Positions 3,268 to 29,210 of a DNA stretch of 40,355 nucleotides are shown here, piece by piece. The first letter of the stretch is position 1. Every line of letters starts with the position of its first letter. This DNA is from a virus, in IMG/VR virus record IMGVR_UViG_3300023112_000040, positions 1 through 40,355 of that record. The stretch is one strand, 5' to 3'. A program made the translations under genes and the position numbers. The notes below the pieces were generated by a model. It was given only the letters and a program-made list of their open reading frames with translations. It was not told where the DNA came from and ran no database searches.

Positions 3268-4603
3268 TATTATAAACGCAAAAATTGTATTCGATGACTC
3301 TTCACTGAAACAATCTATGAACATAGGTGGTGGAAAAGGTGGTAGTGGTGGTGGAGGAATTAGTGGTGCTATTTCTAAAACTGCTTTCGCACAAGATAGT
3401 CCTGTTTGGGGTGATATAATGGCTGGTGTTGGTGGTATGGTATTAGCATTAAATGCTTTGGTTGATATTGTTAAATGGGGATTCGGTAAGATAGTTGCTG
3501 CATCACCGCATTTACAAGCCACAATGGATTTATTGACCAAGACAGTTAAAGTTACCTTAAGACCTATTGGTGATGTTATATCATCATTGTTTAGACCTTT
3601 CTTAATTGGATGGCTTAGAGTTGTTTTACCTGTTTACAAAGCATGGAGACAATGGTTTGGTGAAGGTGGAGGACTTGAAGCTCGTATTGAAATATCTGAA
3701 GGATTCTCAGAAATCTGGGAAGGTATTAAGAATTGGGATTTTACTCAAGTAATGGATGGTGTAAAACAAGTATGGGATGGTTTTAAAGATTTGTTTAAAA
3801 GTTTTGGTTCTGAAGTTTTAGGACCACAAGTTGATGCGTTCTATGATTGGTGGGCTGAACGTCAAGAACAGTTTAACACATCAGGTATATTTGACACATT
3901 ATGGGAGATGTTTAAGTCTGCAGCAAGTGGTGTTATGACTTTTATTTGGGAACAAACATTTAAACCTGCATGGGATAAATTTATTGAATATTTAAAAGGA
4001 ACTACATGGGGTAATGCTCTTGTTAATTTTAGTGAAACTTTATGGGGTTTATGGACAGATTTCGGAACAAAACTTGAAAGTTATAGTTGGGCTGGACCAT
4101 TAGCACCATTCTTTGCAGCAATAGCAACAGGATGGGATGGGATAGTTGAACCAATGGTGAGTTCTTTAGTAGATAAACTAAGTGAGAAATTACCAGGATT
4201 TGCATCAGCAGTAGAATATTTGTTTGGTGATGATGAAGGTGAAGATGGTGGTGGATTCTTTGGTAGTATTTGGGAAGGTGCTAAAGGATTAATGAACTGG
4301 CTTACTGAAACATTTGGACCATATTGGGACGAATTGTTTATATTTATGACTGGTGGTATGGTTGGTTTAGTAACTTATATGAATACTGACATGAGTAAAA
4401 GTTTACAAGAAATGAATAAAGTTGGTGAGAAAGAAGTTGGTTCTGATAAAACTGGTTTGGTTAGTAAATTTAACGCAACATCAGAAAGTATGATAGAATC
4501 ACAAAACCAAACAACAAACTTAATTTCAAGGTTAAATGATATACCTAGAAATATAACAACAACACACACAATAAGGACTGTGCGTGTTTCGAGTGGTGAT
4601 TAA
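3257..4603 (+). CDS. tail tape measure protein (short)
   Basis: 448 residues. A glycine-rich stretch lies at about residues 24-36, followed by hydrophobic segments (DIMAGVGGMVLALNALVDI, and around residues 105-130) and then long tryptophan-rich amphipathic helices (WEGIKNWDF, VWDGFKDLF, WEMFKSA). The pattern of hydrophobic and helical segments right after the chaperones is that of a tape measure, which sets tail length. At the usual 1.5 angstroms per residue a tail of about 65 nm would be expected. It is shorter than most siphovirus tape measures. AAGGAACAAAA precedes the start. Confidence 0.65.
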   Translation: MADDIINAKIVFDDSSLKQSMNIGGGKGGSGGGGISGAISKTAFAQDSPVWGDIMAGVGGMVLALNALVDIVKWGFGKIVAASPHLQATMDLLTKTVKVTLRPIGDVISSLFRPFLIGWLRVVLPVYKAWRQWFGEGGGLEARIEISEGFSEIWEGIKNWDFTQVMDGVKQVWDGFKDLFKSFGSEVLGPQVDAFYDWWAERQEQFNTSGIFDTLWEMFKSAASGVMTFIWEQTFKPAWDKFIEYLKGTTWGNALVNFSETLWGLWTDFGTKLESYSWAGPLAPFFAAIATGWDGIVEPMVSSLVDKLSEKLPGFASAVEYLFGDDEGEDGGGFFGSIWEGAKGLMNWLTETFGPYWDELFIFMTGGMVGLVTYMNTDMSKSLQEMNKVGEKEVGSDKTGLVSKFNATSESMIESQNQTTNLISRLNDIPRNITTTHTIRTVRVSSGD

Positions 4604-9492: not shown

Positions 9493-12400
9493 ATGTTTTG
9501 GAGGTACGCAGTTGGAACGAGTAATATGTTTGGTAGTGATGAGCCTATAACACCTGATTATGTATTTTCTTTAGATTTATCAGAAGATATAGTGGCTTAC
9601 TATACTGCTAACTTTGATGGTAGTTTTACTGATGAGACTGGTAGATTCAATGGTACTATTAATGGTAATCCAACTTATGTAACTGGTAAACTTGAAAAGG
9701 GTATTGATTTTGATGGTACTGGTGATTATGTTAATTGTGGTCGTTTAACACAAACAGAAAGTGCCTCTAAAGTTAGTGTTTCTTTTTGGATGAATCAAGA
9801 TACGTTAAATGTTTTTGATACTTTAGTAGGAAAAGATGTTGGTTCTGCAACAGATAATTTTAGTATTTTTACTTACACTGATGGTAATATGTATTTTGAA
9901 CCAATGGCTTCTGCCACAAGAGGTTATTTAGATTATTCTTTATATGTTACTGCTGGAACTTGGGCTCATATTGTTATGGTGTTTGATGGGACTGCTGTTG
10001 GTAATAGTGGAAGATTAAAAGTTTATATTGATGGTACTGAAAGAACTTTAACTTATGCTGGAACTATTGGTACAACAACCCTTGCAACTACTTATGATTT
10101 ATATCTGGGTGCTAATGTTGGTGCTAGTCAACCATACGCTGGTTTAATGGATGAGATTATAATATCAAATAGGGCTTTTAATCAAGCAGATGTTAATACA
10201 TTAAACAATTCAGGTGCTGGTATTAGAGCTAAGAACTTCTTTGAAGGTAGTCCTGAATTAACTGATAACTTAGTAGCTTACTATCCTTTAGATGGTACAA
10301 GCTGTGTAGATGAAGCTGGTGGTAGTGATGGAACAGTAAGTGGAAATCCAACTATTGTTTCAGGTGTAGTAAATAATGCTATTGATTTTGACGGTACTGG
10401 TGATTATATTGATGCAGGAACGATTTCTGAAATAGAGGGTGTAGGAGCATTTAGTATTTCATGTTGGATGTATCACGATAGCAACTCTGGTAATCAAGGT
10501 TTATGGTCAAAATCTCAAGGTGGAGGAGCAGGTGCGTTTACTTTCAGATATAATGATAGTGGTAATGAATGGGCTTTTGAAGTTGATGGTGCTTATGGTG
10601 CAGGTGATGCGGTTAAATATGATGACCCAGCTATCCCGACAGGACAATGGAACCATTTAGTGTTTGTTTTTGATGGCTCCTTAACTAACAACGATAGATT
10701 AAAATTATACGTAAATAGCACTTTAGCAACTGTTTCAGACCAAGGTGGTTCAATACCTACAACTACTGCTACACCAAGTAGTAATTTAATAATTGGTACA
10801 GGTTCTGGTGGTAGTTCAGGTGATTATTTTAATGGAAAGATACAAGATTTCGCAGTATTTACTAAAGCTTTAGCAAGTGAGGAAGTTACTACATTAAATA
10901 ATTCAGACGTACCTTTACGATTAACAGCTCCTTTCCAAGGTAGTAGTACATTAACTACTGGTTTAGAAGCATCTTATACATTTAGGAATGCAGCAACAGA
11001 TGACTATGGAGATAACGATGGTACTGTTTCTGGTGCAACTTATAACACTGATGGGAAAGTAGGAAATTGCTATACTTATGATGGGATAAATGATAATATA
11101 GATATAAGTGCAGGTTCTACAACTGATATATATGACATTGATGGTGGTGATGTTACAGTATCACAGTGGTTTAAAAGGGATTCAACTACTAATACTCAGG
11201 AATTTACTTTTATGAATAGAAATTTAGGTGCTGATTTTTGGTTTGGATGGGATGGTGCCATAGATTCAACTAATGAATTTAGTGTGTATATTGTTGTTAG
11301 TGGAACAAATATTAAATTATATGGTGGGGCTGGTATAGCTCTTGATACTGACTGGCATCATGTAGTTGTAATAATAAGTCCAACAGGCACTTCTAGTTTA
11401 TATATTGATGGTGTTTTAAGAGATAGTGATGCCACTTCATACACACCTAATTTGGCCGGTGATGCTGGTGTTAGTATTGGTGCTAATGCTAATAATGATA
11501 CTTATGAATGGGGTGGTGAGATTGGACAGACATTAATTTGGAATAGAAGTTTAACTTATGATGAAGTAATAGAATTATACAATAATAACTATGGTGATTT
11601 CTTTAGTGAGAACACAGAACTTTCAGAAGGTTTGTTATCTTACTATCCTTTAGATGGTACGAGTGCAGTTGATGAATTAGGAAATTATGATGGAACTATT
11701 GCTGGAACTCCTACAGTAGTTTCAGGTGTAGTAAACAACGCAATGGATTTTACTGGTGCTGGTACAGATAAAGTATTGACTGGTATTACCCCTGTTGGTG
11801 ATTATTCAGTTAGTGGTTGGGTTAAATGGGATTCTATAGGTTCCACTTCAACAAGTAATTGTTTTGCTACGTGGGGTGGTGTAAATGGTGGATGGTATAT
11901 GGGTTCTGATGGGGCTAATATTAAAATAAATTGTTATTATGACACTGCTTGGAAATTTGCTTATGCTGATACTTCAATAAGTACAGGTAATTGGTATCAT
12001 ATTGTTTTAACTTTTGATAGTGTAAATAAAGTTGTTAAATATTATAGAGATGGAAGTTATATTACTCAATCAAGTGCTATAACTACTTTTACTGATCCTG
12101 TTGATGAAATTTGTTTGGGAAATCAACCAGGTAGTTCTACTAGAAGTATTGATGGTCAAATGCAAGATGTTGCAATTTATGGTAAAGTTTTAACTACTGA
12201 TGAAGTTACTTTGTTAAGAAATGCTGGTAGTCCTTTAAGACGTGCAATACCTTTTGATGGGGACACAGATTTGGTTACTGATTTAGAAAGTGCTTATACT
12301 TTTGATAACTTAGCAGGTGATGATTATGGGGATAATAATGGAACTGTTAATGGTGCTACTTTAGTTCCTGATGCTCTTCCAATTGGTAATGCTTATAATT

Positions 12401-17116: not shown

Positions 17117-18473
17117 TCTTTACATATTCTTCTTCTCTTTCAAATCCTATAAAATTAAAATCTTCACTCTTTGCAGCCATTCCAGTTGTTCCGCTTCCGA
17201 TGAAAGGGTCAAGAACTATTCCGTTCTTTGGTGTTACTAATCTTACTAAATATCTCATTAGCTTTAATGGTTTTACAGTTGGATGCATGTTGGATTCAAC
17301 ACCAATATTCCTTTCTGCCTTGCTCGTCTTCGCACAATAGAAGAATCTGGAAGCACCACCAACATCATTATGTCCTCTTTCTGATTTATAATTCAAATCA
17401 CCAGTTCCATAAACTTCACTATCATCAAAGCCTCTTCCCATTTTAGATTTTTTAGATTTTGTAGTTCCACTCTGTTCATCTAGTAATCTTCCAGCTTCCT
17501 CGTCAAGGATTATGTTCGCAGGGAAACGACCTGTTGTTGATACACTCCCTGAAGGTCTCTTTAAATCAGTTCCATTAAAAACTTCTTCATCAGTTCTTCC
17601 TCTTCTAATAAAACCGGCTTGTGGATTTACTCTTTCTTCAGTTCCAATCCTACACGCATCGATATTAATACCGCCAGTACCAAACTTCAAAACATTACTA
17701 GCAACAGTCTTCTCACCTAAAGGTTTACGAGCAACAACGATAGGTTCGTGTGCTGGTTTAAGAGCAGTACCCCAACCATCCCACTTTTTTGCATTGTCAG
17801 TTTTTGGGATTGTAATATCCCATTCTTTTTGAATACCAATTCCGAATTTTGATTCTTTAGCATTTCTACCATCTTTACCAACAACATCTCTTTCTGATTC
17901 ATTTATCATATAATCATAATCGTCAGATATATTCAAAACCTTTTTTAATTTTTGCCACTCATCTTTTGACGGAATCTTATGTCCAGTTTCATAAAAAACA
18001 GTTCCACCGATATTATAATATTTATTCTCACATAATTCTCCCAGTTGCCTTAAATTTAAACCTTTTTTTAATCTATGTTCTTTTATTATTTTACCAATTT
18101 TTTTAAATGCCTCTAAAACTTCAGGTTTTTTATCAATCGCTTTCCCAATGTTCAACGATTTTGGGAATCCTGAACCGTACAACCACATTATCTGGTCACG
18201 AATTTCAAACCCGCTATCCTCAATATTAATCGCCATACGATGATAAGTACGACTTCCAGCAAAAGAAAGTAAATGTCCACCAGGTTTCAAAACCCTTAAA
18301 CACTCTTTCCAAATATCAACACTAGGAACGTCATAATCCCATTTCTTACCCATGAACGATAATCCGTAAGGTGGATCAGTAACTATACTATCAACGATGT
18401 TGTCTTCCAACTCTTTTAATCCGTCAAAACAATCCATGTTATGGACTTTATTTAATTCTAAATTCATCATCAT
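17079..18473 (-). CDS. site-specific DNA methyltransferase with inserted helix-turn-helix
   Basis: 464 residues. DPPYGLSFMGKKW (residues 33-45) is the catalytic DPPY motif and LDPFIGSGTTGMAA (421-434) is the SAM-binding motif near the C-terminus, the order of beta-class N4/N6 methylases. MHPTVKPLKLM precedes it. Residues about 122-185 (KKIGKIIKEHRLKKGLNLRQLG) look like an XRE-type helix-turn-helix inserted in the middle, interrupting IGKAIDKK and ERDVVGK, which are adjacent in relatives. No restriction nuclease is adjacent, so self-protection against host restriction is likely. Three ATGs in a row open the gene; the AGAGGA spacing favours the second or third (18,470 or 18,467). Confidence 0.85.
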   Translation of the reverse strand: MMMNLELNKVHNMDCFDGLKELEDNIVDSIVTDPPYGLSFMGKKWDYDVPSVDIWKECLRVLKPGGHLLSFAGSRTYHRMAINIEDSGFEIRDQIMWLYGSGFPKSLNIGKAIDKKPEVLEAFKKIGKIIKEHRLKKGLNLRQLGELCENKYYNIGGTVFYETGHKIPSKDEWQKLKKVLNISDDYDYMINESERDVVGKDGRNAKESKFGIGIQKEWDITIPKTDNAKKWDGWGTALKPAHEPIVVARKPLGEKTVASNVLKFGTGGINIDACRIGTEERVNPQAGFIRRGRTDEEVFNGTDLKRPSGSVSTTGRFPANIILDEEAGRLLDEQSGTTKSKKSKMGRGFDDSEVYGTGDLNYKSERGHNDVGGASRFFYCAKTSKAERNIGVESNMHPTVKPLKLMRYLVRLVTPKNGIVLDPFIGSGTTGMAAKSEDFNFIGFEREEEYVKIAEARTKGVEKD

Positions 18474-18518
18474 ATCCTCTTTTTAAAAATAAAGGGGAAT
18501 CTCACCCCAGCTATTGTT

Positions 18519-18878
18519 CTACTCTACTAACTCAACATCGTATGTTGTTGAACTACCTTCACCAAGTCTCTTAACACTTACTGTTATTTCCTTGTCTTGG
18601 TCAGTTCCTCTAAGCACTTGTTCCGCTGCTCTCAAAAACGGAACGCTACTTGTACTTAAAATTAAGTCAACAGGTTTTCCGTCTTGGTTAATTACTGGTG
18701 CTTCTAAGAAAGCTTTCATTTCAGTTTCTTCACTTTGGTATTTCTTGCCTTCTCTTGATACTAATTTCCAGCTCTTAAGAACAATCTTTGTTCTAACTCC
18801 AATCTCAAACTTGATGAAACTTCCACCTAGCTTTACTTCGTCCCAACTAATTACTTTTTCATTTTTTTCTTGTGTCAT
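18519..18878 (-). CDS. probable single-stranded DNA-binding protein
   Basis: 119 residues with an excellent AGGAGGTC site before the ATG at 18,878. The sequence (WDEVKLGGSFIKFEIGVRTK, then VLKSWKLVSREGKKY) has alternating strands compatible with an OB fold, and an acidic end (TTYDVELVE), as in many ssDNA-binding proteins. It lies between PolB and the methyltransferase. Its leader carries an elaborate RNA fold (18,932-19,028) that could control its translation, as T4 gp32 does through its own mRNA pseudoknot. The SSB call is inference. Confidence 0.45.
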   Translation of the reverse strand: MTQEKNEKVISWDEVKLGGSFIKFEIGVRTKIVLKSWKLVSREGKKYQSEETEMKAFLEAPVINQDGKPVDLILSTSSVPFLRAAEQVLRGTDQDKEITVSVKRLGEGSSTTYDVELVE

Positions 18879-25080: not shown

Positions 25081-25289
25081 CTGATATGCCGAAGATAGGG
25101 AAAATGCCATCTGATTTAAACTATAATGTCAAACTTAATTTAGATACTGACCGACTCTTACAGCTTAAATGGATAAGAGATAAATTAGCTAACCATTTTA
25201 ATCAATTTGAAAATGAAAGAAGTGATTTTCCTTTATTGGATATAGTAAAGGAACTTGACAAAGAGCTGGAGGGTGGAAAGAATGATTGA
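25077..25289 (+). CDS. MTEMPK-family small protein, member 2
   Basis: 70 residues. Start MTDMPKIGKM, middle TDRLLQLKWIRDKL, and end LDKELEGGKND. It is a diverged duplicate of members 1 and 3. It overlaps the preceding stop (ATGA) and the start of the next membrane peptide. Confidence 0.6.
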   Translation: MTDMPKIGKMPSDLNYNVKLNLDTDRLLQLKWIRDKLANHFNQFENERSDFPLLDIVKELDKELEGGKND

Positions 25290-25398
25290 ATTATTTTGGT
25301 TATTTATTGGTGCAGGATTAGTTACTAGAGATATAAGATTATCTTTTATCTGTACTCTATTTGCAGCTCTCTTTTTAGCAACTGAGGTGTTTTTATGA
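25282..25398 (+). CDS. 38-residue membrane peptide
   Basis: MIELFWLFIGAGLVTRDIRL then SFICTLFAALFLATEVFL: two short hydrophobic segments. Starts inside the end of the previous gene and ends by overlapping the next ATG. Function unknown. Confidence 0.5.
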   Translation: MIELFWLFIGAGLVTRDIRLSFICTLFAALFLATEVFL

Positions 25399-26698: not shown

Positions 26699-26835
26699 AA
26701 TACACATACAAACTAGAACAGGACGGACTTATTGTTGCAGAGGTTAGTGCAAACACTAAGGCTCAGGCAGATAAAGAGATTACTCATTACGCTATGATGT
26801 ACTCGCAAGATGGTCCTGTTAGAATAATCAAATGA
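26695..26835 (+). CDS. 46-residue hypothetical protein, last of the small-gene operon
   Basis: GTG start inside the YkgJ stop (GTGA). VKYTYKLEQDGLIVAEVSAN and then a helix ending GPVRIIK: a small strand-helix-strand fold. Ten bases after its stop the structured RNA region begins. Confidence 0.5.
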   Translation: MKYTYKLEQDGLIVAEVSANTKAQADKEITHYAMMYSQDGPVRIIK

Positions 26836-26844
26836 AATTCAGTG

Positions 26845-27138
26845 ACCCAACATCCTAAAGTGGTATGTAAAAGTGCCGTTGGGTTATTTATAATCACGAA
26901 ATGACACTTGTAAAACAATCGCATGACGGGTGTTGGAACATCCATCAAGTAAGGCGACCAGACTTTCACATTATATGCTAAAACCGCCGAGACAGTCTCC
27001 CTGAAAAGGGGATAAGGTCAAGAGGAAGCTGAGGCTAAGTAGTTGTCTGGTTGTGTCACGTGAATATCCGCGAGATATCGGTTTCCTGGAGAGGAAGTAA
27101 ACAATACTCAACTACTAATTTAGTACATATTAGTAGTT
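26845..27138 (+). ncRNA. large pseudoknotted non-coding RNA
   Basis: No credible gene on either strand. Many perfect helices: ACCCAAC/GTTGGGT (26,845-51 with 26,878-84) capping GGTA/TGCC; ACTTG/CAAGT (26,906-10 with 26,946-50) enclosing GGGTGT/ACATCC with a TGGA loop; ACCAGAC/GTCTGGT (26,957-63 with 27,045-51); AAACCG/CGGTTT (26,981-86 with 27,079-84), which crosses the former; CCCT/AGGG with a GAAA tetraloop (26,999-27,010); ATATC/GATAT (27,064-78); TTCCT/AGGAA (27,083-96, competing with CGGTTT); AGTAGTTG/CAACTACT (27,038-45 with 27,109-16); and AACTACTAAT/ATTAGTAGTT (27,110-19 with 27,129-38). Not a class I recognise. Its position beside tRNAs recalls the large phage RNAs GOLLD and ROOL, without sequence identity seen. 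Confidence 0.65.
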
Positions 27139-27148
27139 ATTAGTATTT

Positions 27149-27233
27149 GGACGTAAGGGCGGAATAGAAGCGTCGCCACACACCAGACAGAGTGTTGAAA
27201 AAGGAGATGTAGGTGCGAATCCTGCTGCGTTCA
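27149..27233 (+). ncRNA. tRNA-like cloverleaf with abnormal anticodon loop
   Basis: Acceptor GGACGTA (27,149-55) pairs fully with TGCGTTC (27,226-32), with A as discriminator. Two linker bases, then a D-like stem GGCG/CGCC (27,158-61 with 27,174-77). Anticodon stem ACAC/GTGT closes an 8-base loop CAGACAGA with no U33. The T-arm GTAGG TGCGAAT CCTGC (27,209-25) abuts the acceptor strand exactly as in tRNA, but position 55 is G. The geometry is tRNA, yet decoding looks impossible. It may be a degenerate tRNA, or a tRNA mimic for RNase P/Z cleavage. Confidence 0.6.
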
Positions 27234-27236
27234 TTA

Positions 27237-27298
27237 TCTCTTGGGAGAAGACTGGGTAGTCTGCGTACGAAGAAGGGTTCGAGTCCCTACCTTGAGAA
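27237..27298 (+). ncRNA. truncated tRNA-like element without anticodon arm
   Basis: TCTCTTGG (27,237-44) can pair with CCTTGAGA (27,290-97) apart from two central T-T mismatches. A D-like hairpin AGACT GGGT AGTCT (27,249-62) follows, then 11 bases in place of an anticodon arm, then a typical T-arm AGGG TTCGAGT CCCT (27,274-88). It ends just before tRNA-Gly. Degenerate tRNA or mini tRNA mimic. Confidence 0.5.
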
Positions 27299-27303
27299 CA
27301 TAC

Positions 27304-27374
27304 GCATTTTTGGTCTAGTGGTATGACGTGAGGCTTCCAACCTCGAGATAAGGGTTCGATTCCCTTAAGATGCA
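27304..27374 (+). tRNA. tRNA-Gly (anticodon TCC)
   Basis: Full cloverleaf: acceptor GCATTTT/AAGATGC, D-arm GTC..GAC with GTCTAGTGGTATGAC, anticodon stem TGAGG/CCTCG with loop CTTCCAA (TCC, reads GGA), T-arm AAGGG TTCGATT CCCTT. Discriminator A73 and the TGGTCTAGTGG D-region are typical of archaea and eukaryotes, not of bacterial tRNA-Gly (U73). CCA is not encoded. GGA-rich codon use in the virion genes may explain its retention. Confidence 0.95.
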
Positions 27375-27381
27375 TTGGTAG

Positions 27382-27463
27382 GGTATGCTGCCAACAAAAG
27401 GTACCGAAAGGTCAGTATTTTAATCCGGTATAATAGCTGGGCAATTAGTACTGGCCACATACC
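27382..27463 (+). ncRNA. pseudoknotted RNA between two tRNAs
   Basis: GGTATG (27,382-87) pairs with CATACC (27,458-63) as outer stem. Inside, TACCG (27,402-06) pairs with CGGTA (27,426-30), and GGTCAGTA (27,410-17) pairs with TACTGGCC (27,449-56; 8 bp with one G-U wobble). The order a, b, a', b' is an H-type pseudoknot closed by the outer stem. A small ACC GAAA GGT hairpin (27,403-12) competes. There is no T-arm, so it is not a tRNA. Class unknown; a small ribozyme or a domain of the upstream RNA are possible. Confidence 0.55.
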
Positions 27464-27467
27464 ATTT

Positions 27468-27539
27468 GGCATACTGGCTTAATGGCAGAGCAGTTGGTTT
27501 GTAACCAACAGGTTATGGGTTCAAATCCCATGTATGCCT
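27468..27539 (+). tRNA. tRNA-Thr (anticodon TGT)
   Basis: Acceptor GGCATAC/GTATGCC (7 bp), D-arm GCT..AGC with GCTTAATGGCAGAGC, anticodon stem GTTGG/CCAAC with loop TTTGTAA (TGT, reads ACA), T-arm ATGGG TTCAAAT CCCAT. Discriminator U73 as in many archaeal tRNA-Thr. CCA not encoded. ACA and ACT codons are very frequent in the fibre and adhesin genes, so an extra tRNA-Thr is useful to the virus. Confidence 0.95.
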
Positions 27540-27587
27540 TAGTAATAATGGGGGTTTCCTCTTGTATGGTACTCTAGGCAAGGAGGT

Positions 27588-27649
27588 CGCAATTGACTAA
27601 GTCGTACGACTTTGCAGTTGTGTAATGTCAAAAACAGGTCAAGCTGTTT
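27588..27649 (+). promoter_or_regulatory. hairpin-rich leader of the terminase gene
   Basis: CGCAATTG (27,588-95) pairs with CAGTTGTG (27,615-22) and encloses the perfect palindrome AAGTCGTACGACTT (27,599-27,612). A second hairpin, AAACAG/CTGTTT (27,632-37 with 27,644-49), follows at once. Both lie within 90 bases of the terminase start, between tRNA-Thr and TerL. They could act in processing of the tRNA transcript, in translation control, or as the 3' end of the RNA block. Confidence 0.5.
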
Positions 27650-27677
27650 ACCCTATTACGCTTACAAAAAAAAGAAG

Positions 27678-29210
27678 ATGGTGTTTAGTGAAAGGGTTGA
27701 TATAGGACAAGTGAGAGCCCTGATAGTACAATATCAAACTGACAGACCAAAGCTAATTGCAATACTACGTAAGGTATTTGAGAACCCAGAAAACATAGAC
27801 ACATTCGCATATTTCTTTTTCCCTGAAACAGTAACAAACACAATACCTGAATTCCACATGGAGTTATACAGAGAGTTATTCGATAAAGAGAACAACGCCT
27901 TTGCAGCACCAAGGGGACATGGTAAGTCATCACTAACAGGTATCGTATTCTTAATATTCTCAATACTAAACAAGATGGAGAAGTACATTGTATATATATC
28001 ACAGAATCACTCCAAGACAGTACAGTTCCTTGACCCTATTAGGTACGAGTTCAAGAATAACAAATTATTGAAATTCGTATATGGGGACCTTTCCATGAAG
28101 ACCAACAAAGACGAGGATGGTAGAGACAGAGAAGACTGTTTCGATGTTAATGGAATTAGGGTTGAGGCTGTATCCTTTGAGAAGAATCTTAGGGGTTTCA
28201 AGTACGGTAACATGCGACCTACATTAATTATTGGTGATGATATTGAAGATGATACACGTGTGCTTAATCCTGAGCTTAGGGTAAAGGACCAGAACAAGTT
28301 GAACAAGGTTATCATTCCATCACTAGACATAGATGGTCGGTTCAAGATGATTGGAACTATCCTGCACTATGATAGTTTATTAGTGAGCAAGATTAAACTG
28401 CATGGCGGTAAGATATTCTCAGCAATTAGTGATGGCAAAATACTATGGGAAGAACGATTCACAGAAGAAAAGCTTGACAAGATTAAACATAACATTGGTA
28501 GCATAGCATTCCAGCAGGAGTATCTCAACGACCCAATTGATAATACATCAGCACTAATTAAACGTGAGTGGATTGAGGAATGTTTAGATAAAGATTTAAG
28601 TTATAGGGAAGCTCAGCAATTGGAGTACGATTTAAAGTTCCAGGGTACTGACTTCGCATTTAGTGACAGGGTTACTGCAGACAGTAGTGCCTTTGTATCA
28701 GTTGGTCAACAGGGAGATAGCATTATAGTATTTGATGTGCAGACAAAACAGGGCATGTCAATATTCGAGCAGATGACATTTCTTAGGGAAGACCTACACG
28801 CCAAGTATCAGTACGATAGCTTAGGGTTAGAAGAAAACAGTATCAAATCAATATCCAAGGACATAGACCAGTGGGATATGCCAGTGACATTGTTCTGGAC
28901 TGGTGCTACTGACCCAGCTAACAAACGAATACCTGGTAAAGATTACGATTTTTTAGGCAAGAGGCATACAGTCGGTAAGATTGCTTTAATCATGCGACTT
29001 GGCACTGCCTTTGAAAACAATAGATTTAGAATACCATATAAAACAGAGGAGGATAGAAGAATCACAGACAAATTAATATCCGAGTGTATTTCATACGCAT
29101 TAGCAGAGGGTAAATTAGTAGAAGCTGGAGTCCATCCAGATATTCCAATAGGATTGGGCTACGCATTAGAACTAATAAATAATTACAACGCTGTGATAAT
29201 AGATTTTTAA
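27678..29210 (+). CDS. terL: terminase large subunit
   Basis: 510 residues from the ATG at 27,678 (MVFSERVDIG). An earlier TTG at 27,612 would run through the leader hairpins and is unlikely. ATPase motifs: Walker A RGHGKS (residues 79-84) and Walker B TLIIGDDIEDD (182-192). The RNase H-like nuclease begins at GTDFAFSDRVTADSSAF (about 323-339, first catalytic Asp), with LGLEENSIKS and later residues of the fold. It cuts and pumps viral DNA into the prohead through the portal. An overlapping 26-codon frame from ATG 27,625 shares the A8 run at 27,666 and might feed in by -1 slippage. Confidence 0.9.
   Translation: MVFSERVDIGQVRALIVQYQTDRPKLIAILRKVFENPENIDTFAYFFFPETVTNTIPEFHMELYRELFDKENNAFAAPRGHGKSSLTGIVFLIFSILNKMEKYIVYISQNHSKTVQFLDPIRYEFKNNKLLKFVYGDLSMKTNKDEDGRDREDCFDVNGIRVEAVSFEKNLRGFKYGNMRPTLIIGDDIEDDTRVLNPELRVKDQNKLNKVIIPSLDIDGRFKMIGTILHYDSLLVSKIKLHGGKIFSAISDGKILWEERFTEEKLDKIKHNIGSIAFQQEYLNDPIDNTSALIKREWIEECLDKDLSYREAQQLEYDLKFQGTDFAFSDRVTADSSAFVSVGQQGDSIIVFDVQTKQGMSIFEQMTFLREDLHAKYQYDSLGLEENSIKSISKDIDQWDMPVTLFWTGATDPANKRIPGKDYDFLGKRHTVGKIALIMRLGTAFENNRFRIPYKTEEDRRITDKLISECISYALAEGKLVEAGVHPDIPIGLGYALELINNYNAVIIDF

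Follow-up and report, generated by a model that had tools for sequence, protein, structure and literature searches.

A covarying three-way-junction RNA beside tRNA genes in a tailed virus, most likely of an archaeon

Positions 26895-27062 of the virus genome studied here encode a conserved structured RNA, a three-way junction whose closing stem has kept its pairing through compensating changes in two homologues; we hold this with high confidence. The window, that is, the whole stretch of DNA analysed, is the 40,355-nt IMG/VR record IMGVR_UViG_3300023112_000040, one entire virus record. A sequence-only reading had placed a large RNA of about 300 nt at 26845-27138. A structured RNA does lie there, but the conserved unit is restricted to 26895-27062; at 168 nt this core is far below GOLLD and ROOL in size and hardly "large". 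Where at least ten helices had been read, only four (23 bp) are common to the homologues and can count as a conserved set. The core is composed of P1 (4 + 4 bp with a 3-nt 5' bulge), P2, a 3-nt joint and P3, and RNAalifold returned a single three-way junction for the three sequences:

26895-27062, plus strand: conserved core, three-way junction, 168 nt (homologues, covariance model R1)
26895-26898, plus strand: P1b 5' strand CACG, partner CGTG at 27059-27062; two of four pairs changed on both sides
26899-26901, plus strand: P1 bulge AAA, 3 nt, kept in all three sequences (alignment)
26902-26905, plus strand: P1a 5' strand TGAC, partner GTCA at 27055-27058; four of four pairs changed on both sides
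26906-26910, plus strand: P2 5' strand ACTTG, partner CAAGT at 26946-26950; letters invariant (RNAalifold)
26951-26953, plus strand: J2/3 joint AAG, AAA in the homologues (alignment)
26954-26963, plus strand: P3 5' strand GCGACCAGAC, partner GTCTGGTTGT at 27045-27054; 10 bp in all three sequences
26964-27044, plus strand: variable domain within P3, with a GAAA-type hairpin in the window (alignment)

One homologue, G004 (IMGVR_UViG_3300035698_008659, core at 3519-3672), was found without any pattern, by blastn of 47 related virus records, through three collinear matches; its MCP is 71% identical to that of the window. The other, G048 (IMGVR_UViG_3300023219_000098, core at 10783-10949), was found with a motif built from the window and G004 sequences, which matched 17 contigs, the rest being chance matches or the same record. 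By its sequence, G048 is not a close relative of the window virus: its terminase matches that of the window over a short stretch only, and the phage record nearest to this terminase belongs to an archaeal virus, Halogranum tailed virus 1 (E=8e-61, 32% identity).

In each of the three sequences the 23 core pairs are without exception standard (69 of 69 cells pair), and P1 shows changes on both sides in six of its eight pairs. Given in the order window, G004, G048, P1b reads CACG/CGTG, CGCC/GGCG and CACU/GGUG, P1a reads TGAC/GTCA, CAGC/GCTG and CAGT/ACTG, and the intervening bulge reads AAA, TCA and AAA. None of 500 shuffles reached six double changes, and slid partners gave zero. When the same number of 3'-arm changes was placed at random, P1 stayed intact in 0 of 200,000 trials for G004 and 9 of 200,000 for G048. 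The related viruses thus bear out the earlier claim of a conserved structured RNA rather than chance, their P1 stems carrying six compensating double changes. The G048 version of P1 is weak in silico, its pair probability being ~0.2.

The evidence from P1 is independent of the search, since G048 was found with a pattern limited to the P2 3' strand, J2/3 and the P3 5' strand. The invariance of these three segments in G048 is therefore partly forced, while that of the P2 5' strand, the P3 3' strand and the UAAA after P2 is unforced. This tetranucleotide (TAAA in the DNA) directly follows the P2 5' strand and is invariant in all three sequences. P2 is ACUUG/CAAGU throughout and so gives no covariation either way. 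P3 pairs GCGACCAGAC with GUCUGGUUGU in the window and can be written GCRACCAGAC/GUCUGGUUGU across all three, with one A-U to G-U change and the remainder invariant. As both helices barely vary, energy and conservation are what support their pairing. P3 includes ACCAGAC (26957) and GTCTGGT (27045), which are present as first read; this long-range helix dominates the minimum-energy fold, with pair probabilities of 0.85-1.0. The loops of P2 and P3 are not conserved, and the variable domain measures 81 nt in the window, 56 in G004 and 64 in G048.

Outside the core, the window carries hairpins of its own:

26841-26889, plus strand: 5' hairpin GTGACCCAAC/GTTGGGTTAT, window only (z=-3.96, 0 of 200 shuffles)
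27063-27146, plus strand: 3' hairpins including CGGTTT (27079), window only (z=-2.38); no conserved partner

No counterpart of the 5' hairpin was seen in G004 or G048. A 303-nt segment folds more stably than 100 of 100 dinucleotide shuffles (z=-2.44) and contains eight perfect 7-nt inverted repeats where 2.4 are expected (a count of eight is reached by 10 of 500 shuffles) and 17 perfect 6-mer inverted repeats against 10.4 expected. GC content is higher than in the surroundings, as had been noted, if modestly (0.43-0.46 vs 0.36-0.40 nearby), and we considered whether the region might simply be a GC-richer intergenic stretch that folds by chance. Single 150-nt windows across the core do have modest fold z-scores (-1.1 to -1.8), and the pseudoknot proposed between AAACCG (26981) and CGGTTT (27079) is at chance level: chance alone predicts ~10 six-base repeats, of which this is one, and it is not conserved, the pairing between P3 loop and 3' flank amounting to at most 5 bp in G004 or G048, with no pseudoknot counterpart. 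Two homologues with six double compensations argue the other way and leave chance folding scarcely credible for the locus; it is refuted for the core and is still the best account of the AAACCG/CGGTTT pseudoknot.

The window encodes the hallmarks of a tailed virus, namely a terminase, portal, head protease, tape measure, family B DNA polymerase and primase. Of the baits used for related loci, the terminase returned one distant locus and the portal none; the MCP worked, identifying relatives in 47 IMG/VR contigs and in five genome bins, three of them assigned to Woesearchaeota or Nanoarchaeota, one to an archaeon and one to WOR-3, the last possibly through a misplaced contig. Because MCP relatives sit in Woesearchaeota and Nanoarchaeota bins, the host is most likely a DPANN archaeon. 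This archaeal character had escaped the sequence-only reading, as had the array of several RNAs, one of them near the skipping-rope family, in which the core lies.

As first read, the region is free of genes. A small ORF ends at ~26836 and the terminase ATG is at 27678, which leaves a gene-free array of ~845 nt, and no frame is consistently open through the core in all three homologous sequences; a coding explanation was rejected on this ground. On the plus strand, the core comes first and is followed by a skipping-rope-like RNA, a tRNA-like element, tRNA-Gly, a spacer, tRNA-Thr and a last stretch; the adjoining viral tRNAs of the earlier account are thus in the same gene-free stretch:

27148-27233, plus strand: skipping-rope-like RNA (RF02924), cloverleaf-like (35.0 bits vs a gathering score of 36.7)
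27237-27300, plus strand: tRNA-like element with D-like and T-like arms and no room for an anticodon arm (sequence reading; weak)
27304-27374, plus strand: tRNA-Gly(UCC), no encoded CCA (ARAGORN; Rfam 67.8 bits)
27375-27467, plus strand: structured 93-nt spacer exactly filling the space between both tRNAs (z=-3.08, 0 of 200 shuffles; no Rfam match)
27468-27539, plus strand: tRNA-Thr(UGU), no encoded CCA (ARAGORN; Rfam 69.7 bits)
27678-29210, plus strand: terminase large subunit, closing the noncoding array (phrog_38, E=2.4e-58)

The match to RF02924 extends over 80 of 80 model positions and leaves no pair broken (E=3.1e-6 over the 1 kb searched). Skipping-rope RNA is known from phage sequences (PMC8501573). 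Here it shares the array with the RNA under study and lies directly 3' of it, but it is a separate 80-nt element, and the core has no match to RF02924. The second hairpin of this element repeats, at 27182, the ACCAGAC 7-mer of the P3 5' strand and so could pair with 27045-27051. The element at 27237-27300 has two mismatches in its acceptor and a free-energy fold no better than shuffles; it may be a tRNA in decay or a mimic of one. Another unusually stable plus-strand fold was seen at 25150-25299 (z=-3.08), mostly within a small ORF.

Comparison of the three viruses revealed different surroundings. In the window the core is followed by the skipping-rope-like RNA, in G004 and G048 by small ORFs that differ from each other. 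With the downstream feature differing in all three, there is no commonly regulated gene, which argues against regulation in cis by a leader or riboswitch whose junction would bind a ligand or protein and control the gene following it in the transcript. The first ORF after the RNA in the window is that of the terminase, 616 nt off and beyond two tRNAs, and the G004 ORF (3696-4064) has no PHROG match. The proximity of ORFs in the other two viruses, ~24 nt downstream of the RNA in G004 and ~105 nt in G048, would suit a leader, as would the architecture of the core: aptamers typically show a covarying closing stem with fixed joint letters. Among them, three-way-junction aptamers as a general class combine a covarying closing stem with fixed joint letters, and the RNA studied here resembles them in both respects, but it has neither an Rfam riboswitch match nor a common downstream gene. 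Taken together, we regard a cis-acting element as unlikely.

The array abuts the terminase in the window, and in G048 the RNA lies 1.9 kb before this gene, an arrangement that could point to a packaging or DNA-level signal such as a pRNA-like RNA or a pac site. In G004, however, the terminase is ~8.1 kb downstream, past the DNA polymerase gene, compared with 0.6 kb in the window; the distance is not conserved, which disfavors a packaging signal. Moreover, the covariation is of the single-stranded-RNA type, whereas a pac site needs no such pairing, and relatives with 63-65% identical terminases do not have the RNA where the locus is visible. We therefore consider a role in packaging improbable.

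The core has no match in Rfam 15 at E<=10 (cmscan of 26700-27700), and at permissive thresholds it has none in the G004 and G048 regions either. Group I/II intron, RNase P, tmRNA and riboswitch models gave no match at E<=10 in 26700-27700, and likewise in the G004 region. The Infernal comparison with Rfam proposed at the outset, including GOLLD, ROOL, RNase P and group I, thus returned nothing for the core at E<=10, and we found no earlier description of the core RNA in Rfam 15 or in the literature searched. Its patchy distribution, long-range helices and tRNA neighbourhood would also fit what is left of a mobile element, be it a ribozyme, an intron or a guide RNA (group I/II intron, TnpB/IscB omegaRNA, retron or tracrRNA). 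Such families gave no Rfam match at E<=10, those window proteins that were searched gave no match to a reverse transcriptase or RuvC family, and neither a group I/II core motif nor a K-turn was seen by eye. This origin appears very improbable.

The explanation that we favor, and consider probable, is a structured noncoding RNA of tailed archaeal viruses that acts in trans and is made together with tRNAs. P1 would serve as the closing stem, its sequence free to change as long as pairing holds. P2, the AAR joint and P3, where both fold and letters are kept, are for that reason the probable recognition site for a putative partner. The array may be a single transcript that is cut apart by tRNA-end nucleases; there are hardly any spare bases between the elements from 27148 to 27539, which suggests release by tRNA-end processing. 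Once released, the RNA might work with translation or the tRNAs within the viral programme, or be a factor in taking over the host. The analysis establishes the conserved fold, the lack of coding, the occurrence in viruses, the tRNA neighbours and the differing downstream genes; transcription, processing, action in trans, partner and function are inferred.

ROOL forms a homo-oligomeric RNA nanocage. GOLLD, an RNA of head-tail viruses and prophages, and ROOL, of phages and prophages, both often lie near tRNA islands, and their function is unknown (PMC12286853). The RNA described here resembles GOLLD in its gene-free viral locus on the tRNA strand, with tRNA-Gly and tRNA-Thr in the same stretch, and ROOL in being a tRNA-adjoining viral RNA. 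GOLLD members, however, are often >800 nt, have a conserved 3' region and are bacterial, in contrast to a 168-nt core in an archaeal virus, and ROOL is far larger, with several pseudoknots; neither covariance model matches here at E<=10. We group the RNA loosely with GOLLD and ROOL, as a new family and a member of neither. It is conceivable, and we propose it tentatively, that it represents an unrelated, trans-acting new RNA class of archaeal tailed viruses, the archaeal-virus counterpart in the niche of GOLLD and ROOL; a punctuated array made up of tRNAs, tRNA-like RNAs and structured spacers would then be its source.

In bacterial phages, structured noncoding RNAs recur next to tRNAs without explanation, as with GOLLD and ROOL, and a family backed by covariation in viruses that infect DPANN and probably other archaea would carry the phenomenon into another domain. 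The 168-nt core is small enough for structure solution and testing, and the array is a compact case in which tRNAs, a skipping-rope-like RNA and unassigned RNAs are packed almost end to end.

To survey the distribution of the RNA we used R1, the covariance model built from the window, G004 and G048, which scores its three members at 145-165 bits and gives at most 14.4 bits elsewhere in 1.0 Mb of related virus DNA. Five versions of the motif, scanned against IMG/VR, matched from 7 to at least 119 stretches each; after structural filtering, model scoring or flank reading, only G004 and G048 were real among the matches listed, and with the window they make three known members. With strict filters and limited sensitivity, R1 reached at most 26 bits, with broken pairs, in 371 genomes of one DPANN phylum, and found nothing in 353 genomes of one DPANN order and 34 of another phylum. 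A pattern applied to 353 DPANN genomes, also with limited sensitivity, found none, and blastn in phages and plasmids, limited likewise, returned only tRNA or chance matches. The RNA is absent from most related virus contigs and is therefore accessory.

tRNAs differ among the three loci, with two in the window array, a tRNA-Ser 0.8 kb upstream of the RNA in G048, and no certain tRNA adjoining the RNA in G004, where only a tRNA-like element was read by eye. This cloverleaf-like element (L063, 3398-3482) lies directly 5' of the core and was not called as a tRNA. It has a 5-bp anticodon-type stem, a 20-nt loop and a T-arm, and over 34 nt the half containing its T-arm shares 74% identity with the corresponding half of the window's skipping-rope element. 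In G048 (L242), the tRNA-Ser lies inside a longer gene-free stretch (9815-10098) whose ends can pair as TGGCCCC/GGGGCCA; it looks as if a larger RNA enclosed the tRNA, with a fold z of only -0.94 and no Rfam match besides the tRNA. A related virus, G038 (L069), has a 172-base tRNA match on the minus strand (18410-18581), hence a tRNA gene with ~100 inserted bases, possibly an intron. Finally, hairpins with T-rich inner strands, for example GCGAGGTTTTTTGTC...CTTTTTTCCTCGCCC, occur in noncoding DNA of L071, L073, L063 (3330-3400) and L112 (4480-4560), and in L071 and L073 they lie just upstream of the terminase gene.
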